In this document: in pieces, positions 815 through 23,245 of the stretch
How positions within the stretch are numbered: position 1 is the stretch's first letter
How the letters are laid out: every line of letters starts with the position of its first letter
NCBI RefSeq assembly: GCF_009905375.1
Contig: NC_133650.1
Span: forward strand, 150,146,125 to 150,210,124
Direction of reading: 5' to 3'
Origin: Apium graveolens
Taxonomy: Eukaryota > Streptophyta > Magnoliopsida > Apiales > Apiaceae
DNA length: 64,000 bases
Notes under the pieces: generated by a model
What the model saw: the letters and a program-made list of their open reading frames with translations, nothing else
Database searches by the model: none
Told to the model about the DNA's origin: nothing
Translations under genes and position numbers: made by a program

Positions 815-2036
815 AAGATGGAGATTACCATGAGAGCCTCAAATTCGACAATGTGGAGATGGTTAGTGATGACAGTGATGATGAGAGTGATCAAGAAACA
901 GTGTCTAAGGATAATGCAGACAAATCTACCACCAATGAAGCACAAAACTCAACATCCGTCGAGTTGCATAATGCTTCATCCGTCGGAAGGCAATCTGTAT
1001 TATCCGTCGGAAGACAACCTGCCTCATCCGTCGGTACTAAAAATTCACCATCTGTCGGGTTATCAAAAGGAGCAGGAGGTCAAGACAGATCACCTATAGA
1101 AAATTCCCCTTTCTCAAATCAAAGATCCACAAACTCAGGGGGAGTTTCTAGCAATCAAAACTCAATCACACATCAAGAAATTCATGAGGTCTCTTCATCT
1201 AGAGCTAATCTACCTCAACAAAGGAAATGGACAAAAGATCACCCATTTGAGCTTATCATTGGTGATGTTTCTTCTAGAGTTCAAACAAGAAGAGCAACTC
1301 AGGAAGAATATCTATACAGCAGCTTTCTATCAAAGGAAGAACCAAAGAAGGTAGAAGAAGCTTTGTTGGATCCTGATTGGATTTTAGCTATGTAGGAGGA
1401 GCTAAACCAATTTGAAAGGAATAATATATGGAAGCTGGTACCCAAGCCTAAAGGAAAGAAACCAATAGACACCAAGTGGGTATTCAGAAATAAGATGGAT
1501 GAAAATGGAAGAGTACTCAGGAATAAAGCTAGATTGGTTGCTAAGGGTTATTGTCAACAAGAAGGAAGATTTTGATGAAACTTTTGCTCCTGTTGCAAGA
1601 CTTGAAGCCATCAGAATCTTCTTAGCCTATGCAGCCCATGCCAATTTCAAGGTCTATCAAATGGATGTCAAAAGTGCCTTTCTAAATGGAGATTTGGAGG
1701 AAGAAGTGTATGTTAGTCAACCTCCTGGTTTGGAAGATCCAAATTTTCCAGAATATGTCTATTATCTTCTGAAAGCACTTTATGGACTGAAGCAAACACC
1801 TAGAGCCTGGTATGACACTTTATCAAAGTTCCTTTTGGAAAATCATTTCACAAGATGTACTGTAGGTAAAACTTTATTTTTCATAAATGTTAATGGCTCT
1901 AGTATACTTGTTCAAATTTATGTAGATGATATTATTTTTGGCTCTATAGATGAGAAACTTTGCAAAAAGTGCCAAATTGATGCAAAGTAAGTATGAAATG
2001 AGTATGATGGGAGAACTAACTTACTTTCTTGGTTAG
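815..2036 (+). pseudogene. Copia pol, part 1: integrase-RT linker and reverse transcriptase (broken)
   Basis: The frame opens in an acidic, serine-rich linker (about 815-1200) and continues into RT. RT landmarks are FDETFAPVARLEAIRIFLA, YQMDVKSAFLNGDL with a catalytic Asp, and YVDD at 1919-1930. Damage: an in-frame TAG at 1393-1395 just before the RT entry; a ~2-base loss near 1563-1570, where the QQEG and FDETF blocks lie in different frames; and another frameshift near 1968-1975. The RT breaks at a Tyr-Phe-Leu-Gly run at 2036 and resumes at 14980, across CHR1. The linker holds five ATCCGTCGG-type motifs (954-1058), read as a Ser-Val-Gly/Glu repeat. A single host exon is ruled out by the RT and by the continuation at 14980. 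Confidence 0.85.
954..1058 (+). repeat. Cluster of five ATCCGTCGG-type motifs inside the Copia pol linker
   Basis: Copies at 954-962 (ATCCGTCGA), 978-986, 1002-1010 and 1026-1034 (all ATCCGTCGG) and 1050-1058 (ATCTGTCGG), with start-to-start spacing of exactly 24 bases. The regular spacing makes this a tandem array of a 24-base unit in which only the 9-mer is well kept. Here the motif is read in the TCC-GTC-GRN frame. Confidence 0.9.
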
Positions 2037-5000
2037 TGTATCACCCCCAAATCCGGGGTCGGGGATTCGGGTTGTCACGAGTTCCATTTCCCTTATCAAT
2101 ACTTAACCTTAACAGTCAACCAGCTACTGAGTACTGTGGCCCCACAATATACACACACACACACCACAAGTTATAGTCCCAGAGATGAATACCAAAAGTA
2201 ACACAAGTTATTTTATTCCACAGTTATAAACCGTTACACCTAAAAAGGGTTTCTGAATAAATTTACATTTTTTGCCATTATTACAATTCATATAGATACA
2301 TAAGTCTGGTACATCAAAAGTTGAAAGCCTAGCCTATTGGTAATTTCTACCTCAGCTACAGCGGCATCAACGCTTCCATAAAGCTGCGGAACGTTTCCTA
2401 ACCGCTTGTGAATTGGAAGCTTGGTCCTGTTCATCTTTTCTATCTGTTGTTGTGTGAAGAAAGAAGAAAGCAATGGTGAGCAACAAGCCCACCGAAATAA
2501 TATATATAATAGTTAACAATATATGAGCATTCTCATCGTACTCTTGAAAGTCTTGGTCAAGAAGAAATGAACCAAGCTGATATCTTAACGCGACCAAGTC
2601 GCAAAATATTCAGTATATATATACATATATACTTTTCACAATCTTTTAAGTCCTCTAACATGTATAATATACACAGAGTTCCAGTTTATAACTGTATAAA
2701 AATATCGTTGCAAGGTGATCTCATATATCTAACCTTGTCTCAACATTTTTCTGAAAATCTTTGACATGCACAAGATAATCATTTACTAGATATAAGTTTA
2801 AAAGATGAAGTTACAAGATACTCCAATATACTTATATCTTCTCCGAATACTACTTGAACTACCACCGTTCAAGGTATAATCCGTTTCAAAAGTTCATCAC
2901 ATAGATGAGACTACAAGATAAGATTTGAATAGATTCAATCCTTGAAATATCATTATAAATAATGAAGTTACAAGATACTTCATTAAGTCCTGATATATAT
3001 ATACACCTATATATATATATTTCATACACTCCTTGAAAACCTCTGTTATGAAAATTATAAACAGAGTTGTAATATCCAATGAATTTGGAAAGGAGAAAAC
3101 CTTGGCATAAACCTGATATCTTGCTGATCAGGCAAAGATACTAATAAGTAACCTTTTCTACTAGTAGATGGACGAATTCCCCACTGGTCATCACCCTGGC
3201 CGTAATAGGACCTTATGCTGGACTGCCACTCAGCCACTTACGCATTTGATGGACTCCCACTGAGCCACTTACACTTTCATGGACGCCCACTGAGCCCATG
3301 TTGCTTATGCCGACTCAATAGATGAACTTACTTCCCGAACGTTGGGTAAGTAATCAATTCATTTGTCAAAACAACAACCTCGTTGTGAATATAAAATACA
3401 CCACAAAGCCGAATTCCTCAGGTTTTGAGCGAGTATTTAAATCCCCTTTGAAAGGAGGATCTTAAATATAAAAATGAGTTTTGGGATCCGCTCTAACTTT
3501 TAAAATCATTTTGAAGACTCGAAAACATTTTTAAGAATGTTTGGACTAATGCTGATTTAATAAAATAAACCAGTCCCAATATATTAGAAAATATATGAAT
3601 ATTATTATTTAAATAATATTCACATAAGGATAATCTCTATATAAACAATTTGAAGTAGAAGTTTTAAAACTCATACTTGAAATGAATATTAAATAACCAA
3701 AGATATACTTATACGAAAGTACTATCTTTATTTGAATAATCGAAAATAAGTTTGATTATCGAAACATTATTCTTTAATAAAATAAAGAATATTAATTAGT
3801 AAATAATCGGAGTCATAAGTCCTCAAATGAATATTCAAATAATATTCAATAAGTAGAATAAACAGAGTCATAAGTCCTCGAATGAATATTCAAATAATAT
3901 TCATTAAATAGAATGAACAGAGTCATAAGTCCTCGAAAGAATATTCAAATAATATTCATTATTTAAAATAAAGTTATCGAATAAATCTTATTCGATTAAT
4001 AGTTTTGAAAACTATATCAATATATATATATAAATAAATATATATATATATATATTTATATATTATACTCGGGAACATCGACTCCCGATTTAGAAAAATG
4101 TTCACCTTTGGGTCCCCTATACTAAGGGTATACGCAACTACTGCTTATCTCTAGCATAGGTATTATGCAACTATAAGCATTTAAATCAATAGATAGATAA
4201 CCAGATTACGAAATAGACATGCATATATATACCATATCAGCATGCTTCAATATATCACAAAATTTTCTAATTAACCAACATGCATCTTTCACAAGATAAT
4301 GCATATACATATATACATCACAACAACAGTATAAAGGGTAGAAAACTTGCCTGAGCGACTGGGGGTGGTAAAAGTCCTGGGATGAGTCTGGTAACCTATA
4401 AACCACATATAAGTTGGAATTAAACCAAAGTCGCTTATGAATCTATACTTTAACCAATTAGACTCTAACGCTCGCTTTGCGCTTAACGATTCTCTTAAGT
4501 CGCTCGAGTACCCTCGGTTCCATCATTTTTAATAAATTAACCATTAAGAGTTTTAGGGCGATTCTTTCGCGAATGCCTTACCAACTGCCTAATACACTTT
4601 ACATAAATGTTTCAGACTCCAATTAGTCATTTAAGGACTTTAACCAATGTTTCAAAGTAAGACGAGGGGTAATGGTTCATTCGCGAAACGCCGTTACTTA
4701 AAATGGTCGTTTCTCCTAAACCGTACATCGGATTCAAACGAACCACATATCAAAACGAAGCTCATAACATGAACTATCTAATCATGGCAGTGGTCAAAAC
4801 CTAACAGTGAGTTATCGGGTCCTGATGTTAAGAACAAAACCGTCTAAAGTAAATCGGACATTATAACGACTATGTTTACGCGATTACCAATTTTTATCGT
4901 ACTCCAAATCAACCACAAATCAACCACAATTCAACCATACAACCAAACTCCATACATACAATGCTACAACAGCCCCAACAACTCAATATTTCCAATTTAC

Positions 5001-22750: not shown

Positions 22751-22830
22751 TGTTCTACATATGTTGTGTACTTGATGATTTCATAAACAAAACATCTAAG
22801 TAGATTTTACTTAGTGAAATAATATAGCAC

Positions 22831-23245
22831 CCGACGGATAAAAATTATAGTCCCGACGGATAACTCATTATAGTCCCGACGGATGATGACTTATTATCCA
22901 TCGAGTGGGTAGCTTATGTAATAATGAGTCTGTAGCACAGTTCTGTATACATCTTTGTATAGATTCTGTAGTAACCTATAAGTCATGTTGACTTTAACTA
23001 GATATACAGAATATGTTGATTAATTGTATATAAATGATGTCTTGTAATTCTGCATAAGTGAAATGAAGTCAAGTGTCAAAATAGCTACCGACGGATGATT
23101 AACAAAGCCATCGACGGATGATCAAATGACTATCAACGGATGTTTAATATAGCAGTCGACGGATGATCAATGAAGCCATCAACGGATGTTCATAAAGTCG
23201 ACGGATGATCATATATCCAACGGATGTTCATAAAGTCCAACGGAT
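22831..23245 (+). repeat. Twelve CCGACGGAT-type motifs in the Copia LTR
   Basis: Copies start at 22831, 22853, 22876 and 22896 (the last as ATCCATCGA), and at 23088, 23111, 23133, 23156, 23179, 23198, 23217 and 23237. Start-to-start spacing is about 19-23 bases inside each cluster. Variants are CCGACGGAT, TCGACGGAT, TCAACGGAT and CCAACGGAT. All but one read in the complement orientation relative to the pol linker cluster. Confidence 0.9.

Follow-up and report, generated by a model that had tools for sequence, protein, structure and literature searches.

According to the available sections of the survey by Bousios et al. (2010, PMC2829016), Sireviruses carry short repeated motifs, the RM boxes, in their long terminal repeats (LTRs) and upstream of the envelope-like gene ENV, with motifs that are specific to each element, and in Osr10 and HOPIE a few extra RM copies are found at the start of ENV. 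In the VANDAL transposons, as described in the available parts of the reports on them, the VANC proteins bind arrays of short motifs that are specific to the lineage (Hosaka et al. 2017, PMC5735166; PMC10398659). An extra open reading frame after pol, eORF-3', is present in 74% of SIRE elements, where it is described in the available text as heterogeneous and of speculative function (Neumann et al. 2019, PMC6317226). The roles of the repeated motifs of Sireviruses and of their env-like third open reading frame (ORF3) have been a standing question since at least 2010. The subject of the current report is a Sirevirus (SIRE, Ty1/copia) of celery, Apium graveolens, which lies in a stretch of 64,000 nucleotides (contig NC_133650.1, positions 150,146,125 to 150,210,124; "the window" below), and in which a degenerate 9-nucleotide word recurs in the LTR, in non-coding spacer DNA and in codons. 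Between two sister lineages of this element, which we call A and B, one base of the word differs alike at nearly all of its dispersed sites.

The celery motif resembles the RM boxes in being a short, high-copy word that is found both in the upper LTR half and ahead of an env-like ORF (PMC2829016), and the clusters at these two places are of that known kind. It is unlike them in that the published boxes, except those of Tnd-1, are palindromes with a CGG-CCG core (PMC2829016, available sections), a form not found here: the A word, ATCCGTCGR, reads CCG-T-CGG only when its position 9 is G (and otherwise CCG-T-CGA), and the B word, ATCCGTTGA, is without a dyad. The available sections of the same survey report no RM boxes in gag, in the linker between integrase (IN) and reverse transcriptase (RT) or in the middle of ENV, nor a concerted difference between sister lineages (PMC2829016). 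As far as we have seen, what is new in celery is the presence of clusters within gag, the IN-RT linker and the middle of ORF3, together with the concerted difference between the lineages. A literature search, with limited coverage of subscription journals, found no retrotransposon for which such sites in gag or pol codons, or a concerted switch, had been reported, and among the matches listed in a search by the letters of the motif there was no title about retrotransposons.

The likeness to the VANC/VANDAL system (PMC5735166, available parts) lies in arrays of a word of ~9 nucleotides, which vary from one related family to the next and evolve in concert, with C-type and T-type subfamily variants. 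Arrays of a short motif that are specific to a lineage and change together were indeed found in celery, with one mixed lineage, discussed below, as the exception. Unlike the celery element, however, VANDALs are DNA transposons in which the sites are mainly non-coding, introns included, and VANC binding has been demonstrated experimentally for a protein that carries DUF1985 (PMC5735166), whereas the sites of the celery Copia element lie also in codons and their reader is putative. In its available text, the account of eORF-3' draws no link between that ORF and a motif (PMC6317226).

The original prediction, made from the letters of the window, had counted 30 copies of ATCCGTCGG in four clusters. 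Exact copies number 7 (against 0.05 expected from dinucleotide shuffles), and only by including variants with at least two mismatches does the count come to ~30. The dispersed motif is nevertheless a real and strongly non-random feature, degenerate in form: there are 22 sites with at most one mismatch to ATCCGTCGG (3.54 expected, 8 in the largest shuffle) and 28 sites that fit ATCCRTYGR (4.50 expected, 10 in the largest shuffle), 25 of which fall within the four clusters as they had been placed. The IN-RT linker of pol (954..1058) holds five copies, all on the + strand and spaced 24 nucleotides (8 codons) apart, which read A-TCC-GTC-GGN (Ser-Val-Gly) in the same frame as in the relatives. The non-coding spacer between pol and ORF3 (15905..16109) has ~7 degenerate copies on both strands, at 15905 (-), 15921 (+), 15938 (+), 15998 (-), 16021 (+, weak), 16066 (+) and 16101 (-). 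Strands alternate among the six copies in the middle of ORF3 (17983..18097), namely 17983 (-), 17999 (+, with two mismatches), 18022 (-), 18047 (+), 18073 (-) and 18089 (+), and these read xAT-CCG-TCG on the + strand and TCG-A[CT]G-GAT on the - strand, in the frame seen in the relative L045; the frames and strands given in the original prediction for the linker and ORF3 were thus correct. The LTR array (22831..23245, - strand) consists of 12 copies, 11 on the - strand and one on the + strand at 22896. They form two sub-arrays within the LTR's first half, with a spacing of 19-23 nucleotides in each, and T occupies position 7 in 4 of the 12.

Relatives were sampled by the 16-mer CA/ATTGG-TATCAGAGC, the junction of the Sirevirus 5' LTR with the primer-binding site (PBS), which occurs at 35,541 places (reversed control, 0) in the 3.33-Gb genome covered by the genome-wide motif scans. 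They share pol, ORF3 and the clusters with the window, and the evidence for the PBS comes from them, the 5' end of the window's own element lying beyond the window. Stretches of 8.8-10 kb from the PBS were taken for six and another six copies, and then seven stretches of other lineages. The first six copies were picked by the type of their LTR motif; L045-L050 were picked for a ATCCGTCGG pair in the linker, ~3.9 kb from the PBS, a choice that favours C in A linkers and in which the gag, spacer, ORF3 and LTR sites played no part. Internal sites were matches to ATC[CT][GA]T[CT]G[AG] within fixed cluster windows, otherwise-changed sites being dropped. Nine copies belong to A (L042 and L044 with gag only; L043, L047 and L048 without the ORF3 cluster) and three to B (L039 without the spacer). 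Six of the 13 LTR loci considered below have L039-L044 as their internal parts, so that LTR and internal counts are not independent samples; copies of a lineage share descent, and the independent units are sites rather than copies.

In L045, the clusters of lineage A lie at 1681-1756 (gag), 3914-4018 (IN-RT linker), 5921-6089 (spacer) and 8016-8114 (mid-ORF3) from the PBS; in most A loci the LTR array precedes the PBS by ~0.6-1.0 kb. The internal clusters are thus ~2 kb apart, and a longer gap separates the ORF3 cluster from the 3' LTR. The gag cluster is a fifth one, found in the relatives, since the gag part of the window's element falls outside the window. Within gag and ORF3 a site on the + strand is read xAT-CCG-TCG (His/Tyr-Pro-Ser) and one on the - strand TCG-ACG-GAT (Ser-Thr-Asp), so that the five clusters together use both orientations and two + reading frames; as judged by eye, the coding clusters sit in Ser-rich segments of low complexity. 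Four of the nine A copies were counted against shuffled sequence, and the excess of the motif survived in these other members of the family: exact ATCCGTCGR occurs 18, 12, 12 and 13 times per 8.8 kb in L045, L046, L049 and L050 (shuffle mean 0.00). Throughout the genome, the pair ATCCGTCGG-N15-ATCCGTCGG is found at 19,483 places (reversed control, 0).

The evidence that carries our interpretation is the comparison of A with B. Among 30 PBS loci, eight LTRs have the A word and five have ATCCGTTGA, and apart from L035 they form two LTR similarity groups. The B copies L039, L040 and L041 (10 kb each) possess the same clusters at nearly the same places, written in the B word. At position 7, internal sites have C in 116 of 119 cases in A (9 copies) and T in all 55 in B (3 copies), where 53 of the 55 are exactly ATCCGTTGA; in the LTRs the corresponding figures are 55/63 C for A (8 loci) and 59/59 T for B (5 loci; 49 exact). 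Position 9 is G or A in A versus A in B. The three B copies hold 14, 20 and 20 exact ATCCGTTGA and no ATCCGTCGR, and the four A copies counted above hold no ATCCGTTGA; L047, an A copy outside that count, has two ATCCGTTGA among its sites. For gag, linker, spacer and ORF3 in turn, A-versus-B identity (4-6 A copies and 2 B copies, with columns chosen from B only) is.60,.57,.52 and.64 outside the motif,.92,.98,.78 and.90 at motif positions 1-6 and 8, and.12,.00,.30 and.04 at position 7. A TG or CA of B faces a CG of A at 13 of 14 places within the motif and at 2 of 133 outside it. Genome-wide, ATCCGTYGR-N15-ATCCGTYGR occurs at 69,815 places (reversed control, 2), and a hand count of 100 listed pairs gave 65 C/C, 31 T/T and 4 mixed, against ~44 mixed expected if the two members were independent; as neighbouring pairs share elements, which inflates the p-value, this count is a description and not a clean test.

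The change at position 7 is silent in the Val codons of the linker and at - strand sites; at + strand sites it exchanges Ser for Leu, in gag as in ORF3. Of the 27 Ser-Val-[Gly/Asp/Glu] units of the linker in seven A copies, 26 have GTC for Val, and all 11 in the three B copies have GTT (the units were chosen by peptide; six of the seven A copies had been preselected for the linker ATCCGTCGG pair, and the B figure is free of selection). Ser in these units is TCC in 23 of 27 cases in A, versus 5 of the 101 other Ser codons in two A copies. The proposal that the motif is kept at the level of DNA or RNA and not for a peptide is strongly supported by these Val codons and by the equal change at silent and amino-acid-changing sites.

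Since the same substitution is found at nearly all sites, silent or not, we infer that a trans-acting factor selects the word and has co-evolved with it; one base that differs alike at dispersed sites amounts to a natural experiment, whose outcome indicates that a reader acts on the motifs in trans. The motif is likely to represent the binding sites of such a co-evolving factor, and we give a probability of roughly 0.6 to the reading that a sequence-specific factor recognizes it and must occupy the retrotransposon DNA along its length. Binding sites would then be spaced at ~2 kb intervals through much of the element, the codons of gag and pol included; because gag-pol leaves no non-coding stretch, they might have been written into codons for disordered segments, and the LTR copies might double as upstream promoter elements. 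With less assurance, the factor might be encoded by the element itself, most likely by ORF3, and might work as VANC does in Arabidopsis, by binding the motif arrays of its own element and removing silent chromatin. We therefore offer as a tentative proposal, by analogy, that the env-like ORF3 of Apiaceae Sireviruses might specify a sequence-specific DNA-binding protein with an anti-silencing or activating role, and not an envelope, a VANC-like device invented independently in an LTR retrotransposon. As protein and sites co-evolve, sister lineages would diverge into systems of their own, and those of one genome, with ATCCGTCGR, ATCCGTTGA and perhaps AAGTTCTGA (as perhaps also ATCAGTTGA in carrot), might be separate, non-cross-reacting systems of self-recognition. 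If ORF3 is truly the reader, retrotransposons too would have evolved family-specific self-recognition and the label "envelope" would be wrong for this ORF. A and B also supply matched pairs of motif and protein with which the reader could be sought.

The alternative that fares best places the reader in the host: a transcription factor or chromatin protein would recognize the motif, A and B would be adapted to different host factors or paralogues, and the LTR copies would be stress or cell-cycle enhancer boxes. We consider this a possibility, on balance an unlikely one. The B word contains CCGTTG and the word predicted for a carrot lineage contains CAGTTG, both of which fit the plant MYB core, CNGTTR; the A word, with CCGTCG, does not fit it. 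The position of the arrays in the upper LTR half also agrees with the arrangement in the available sections of Bousios et al. (2010, PMC2829016), who mainly recovered stress-related PLACE sites. However, A and B share one genome today, and a single host reader would leave the difference between them unexplained, just as a host enhancer would leave unexplained the copies retained in codons of gag, pol and ORF3 at a distance of several kb from the LTR.

Improbable, in our estimation, is a role of the motif in RNA, where inverted copies would form hairpins of the genomic RNA that serve in packaging, in the translation of ORF3 or as precursors of small interfering RNAs. Folding is indeed strong relative to shuffled sequence in several clusters (z of -7.97 in gag of B, -4.95 in the spacer of B, and -6.92 and -9.27 in ORF3 of B and A), and a C-to-T change on one arm together with G-to-A on the other preserves pairing. 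Yet z is +0.15 for the LTR array, -1.13 for the B linker and -3.35 for the A linker, and direct repeats make up the linker and most of the LTR array; the two have opposite sense in the RNA and nonetheless show the same difference. Hairpins require pairing and not one fixed word across five regions, and conservation of the motif in copies unable to pair has largely been seen already.

Far less probable still is an origin of the A/B difference in methylation-driven decay of CpG or in tandem duplication. A step from TCG to TTG is a CpG transition, some individual sites of A copies look decayed, the window's LTR included, and the linker is a 24-nucleotide tandem array. Against this, of the 55 internal sites of B, 53 keep the word's first CpG and none has the second, and duplication cannot move a base between regions with different flanks; moreover, the outgroup gag rows described below tend to be of the Leu (T) type, so that the CpG-creating C state may be the derived one. 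We accordingly reject CpG decay for B, on the kept first and absent second CpG, and accept it for single A sites. Selection on repeated peptides (SVG, YPS, STD) is the least credible account and is rejected for A and B on the codon evidence (lineage D, below, being left aside), for although the coding clusters encode repetitive Ser-rich peptides, the peptides differ with the frame, the same word recurs in non-coding DNA (LTR and spacer), the choice among synonymous codons for Ser and Val is nearly fixed, and Ser versus Leu is tolerated where the word demands it.

Several observations weigh against a co-evolving, element-encoded reader. The RNA hairpins of the gag, spacer and ORF3 clusters are strong (z -5 to -9), L045-L050 were chosen by their linker ATCCGTCGG pair, and the copies of one lineage are related by descent. 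Both states occur together in a third, mixed celery lineage: its ORF3 proteins P0027, P0032 and P0033 carry both HPS and HPL, and in one copy the linker, spacer and ORF3 clusters each contain C as well as T at position 7 (10 C and 4 T, excluding one site with A at position 7 and sites with two mismatches). The motif is degenerate in 8 of 16 Heracleum gag rows and in the ORF3 rows of one large group. As for the candidate protein, no DNA-binding domain was recognized in ORF3 and no Pfam match rose above the cut-off; DUF1985 was absent from the hmmscan of four ORF3 proteins and, for 34 members, from the 25 families listed of 55; and searches of PDB sequences with ORF3 found no solved relative, with one irrelevant match at E 0.67. 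The AlphaFold2 model of the N-terminal 290 amino acids of ORF3 has a mean predicted local distance difference test score (pLDDT) of 63.7 and a well-predicted core at residues ~50-100. Finally, the divergence of ORF3 is not special, as A-versus-B identity in its N-terminal domain (58-60%) is about that of the C-terminal part of Gag (57-63%).

Both of these last values are far below the RT identity of A versus B (83-90%), and since the N-terminal domain of ORF3 has diverged as the C-terminal part of Gag has, Gag and ORF3 are both candidates for the reader. PF20167 (Transposase_32) is weakly matched by 5 of 34 ORF3 members (best E 0.006), and the model of the C-terminal piece of ORF3 has a pLDDT of 65.9. 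As had been suggested at the outset, the motif is best read as a protein binding site, and the concerted difference lends weight to this; with no DNA-binding domain recognized in ORF3, an element-encoded protein and a host factor are both candidate readers.

In the ORF3 tree the mixed lineage is placed between A and B. It points to stepwise change, to a reader that accepts both words or, in part, to decay, and its existence means that the A/B switch was probably stepwise. For one sampled element, the segments placed for gag and linker were without a cluster (probably through a nested insertion), and the segment placed for the LTR held the linker. In the tree of gag (cluster masked, midpoint root), 10 celery rows of the Ser type are sister to a 9-row Leu group that includes celery, and Leu (T) is the commoner type among the nearest outgroup rows; the Ser type is also seen in three distant gag rows (P0073, P0091 and P0115) and in one carrot row (P0069). 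The C state of the A word is, on these sequences, the likelier to be derived.

Proteins from other Apiaceae suggest further forms of the word. Among 14 carrot rows of the gag cluster (proteins only), 7 are HPL, 3 are HQL (P0082, P0104 and P0108), 1 is HPS, 2 have other forms and 1 is without the cluster; the carrot ORF3 proteins P0021, P0022 and P0172 have [HY]QL at 3 of 3 + strand sites each. The carrot word ATCAGTTGA is inferred from these proteins, gag and ORF3 being taken separately. The same word occurs in 4 of the 59 B LTR sites of celery (loci L011, L029, L030, L036 and L038). The 16 Heracleum gag rows (proteins only) comprise 7 of HPL or YPL, the 8 degenerate ones, in which most sites are lost, and 1 without the cluster. 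A scan of viral contigs with the gag protein P0048 found no relative. Public proteins filed under Rhizophagus irregularis (P0056) and Klebsiella pneumoniae (P0183 and P0196) match gag or ORF3 of Apiaceae Sireviruses, probably through plant contamination of assemblies.

A distant celery lineage, D (L054 and L057), has AAGTTCTGA dispersed 9 and 14 times (0.42 and 0.28 in shuffles; a preliminary result) in gag, in the linker and downstream; the coding copies examined share one frame, which is compatible with peptide selection. L054 has a distant ORF3 relative (23% identity), and the LTR of L009, the same locus, has three copies of AAGTACTGAT. In L055, five copies of TGCGTTACA in both orientations lie at 8013-8143 from the PBS. 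Lineage C looks non-autonomous. Frequent PBS-bearing elements (L013, L014, L017, L020, L021, L024, L032, L033, L034 and L037; L051-L053) mostly have LTR repeats of the TGACAATC type or similar, which recall the ACAATCGATTGT motif of tobacco Tnd-1 in the available sections of Bousios et al. (2010, PMC2829016); of the 8.8-kb stretches L051-L053, only L053 gave an RT match, a weak one, and these elements are probably non-autonomous.

The assignment of the window's element to the Sireviruses draws on its ends and coding parts. Its 3' LTR (22751..23807, + strand, 1057 bp, TG...CA) has a C-rich putative integrase signal, AACCCCCC, at 23764, near the LTR end at 23807, and is abutted at its start by the terminal polypurine tract (PPT) GGGGGAGAT (22742..22750, + strand), which gives GGGGGAG-AT/TG at 22742-22752; multiple PPT copies are present, with additional PPT-like AGGGGGAG at 20391, 20882, 20903 and 20924 (and 1137). 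A zf-CCHC domain is found in gag of the relative L040, RVT_2 in the window and ORF3 after pol. Besides being broken, this copy has another LTR element inserted in it. One pol fragment, with the linker and the start of RT (814..1990, + strand), is not in a single frame and has RVT_2 within 1469-1987, its start being approximate, set where similarity to the relatives begins; the end of RT and RNase H follow beyond the nested insertion (14961..15809, + strand). ORF3 (16330..22410, + strand), the env-like extra ORF of Sireviruses, is 90% identical to the Apium graveolens protein P0003 and is broken, with open pieces at 16213-16488, 16516-18180, 18181-18564 and 20155-22410. Positions 18565-20155 are ~1.6 kb of extra DNA within ORF3, absent from relatives such as L040, and probably a further insertion. 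The nested LTR element that splits pol (1997..14900, limits approximate) stands outside the motif system and has pieces repeated between 2037-5641 and 11215-14482; the window from 1 to ~800 resembles the LTR of this nested element in translation.

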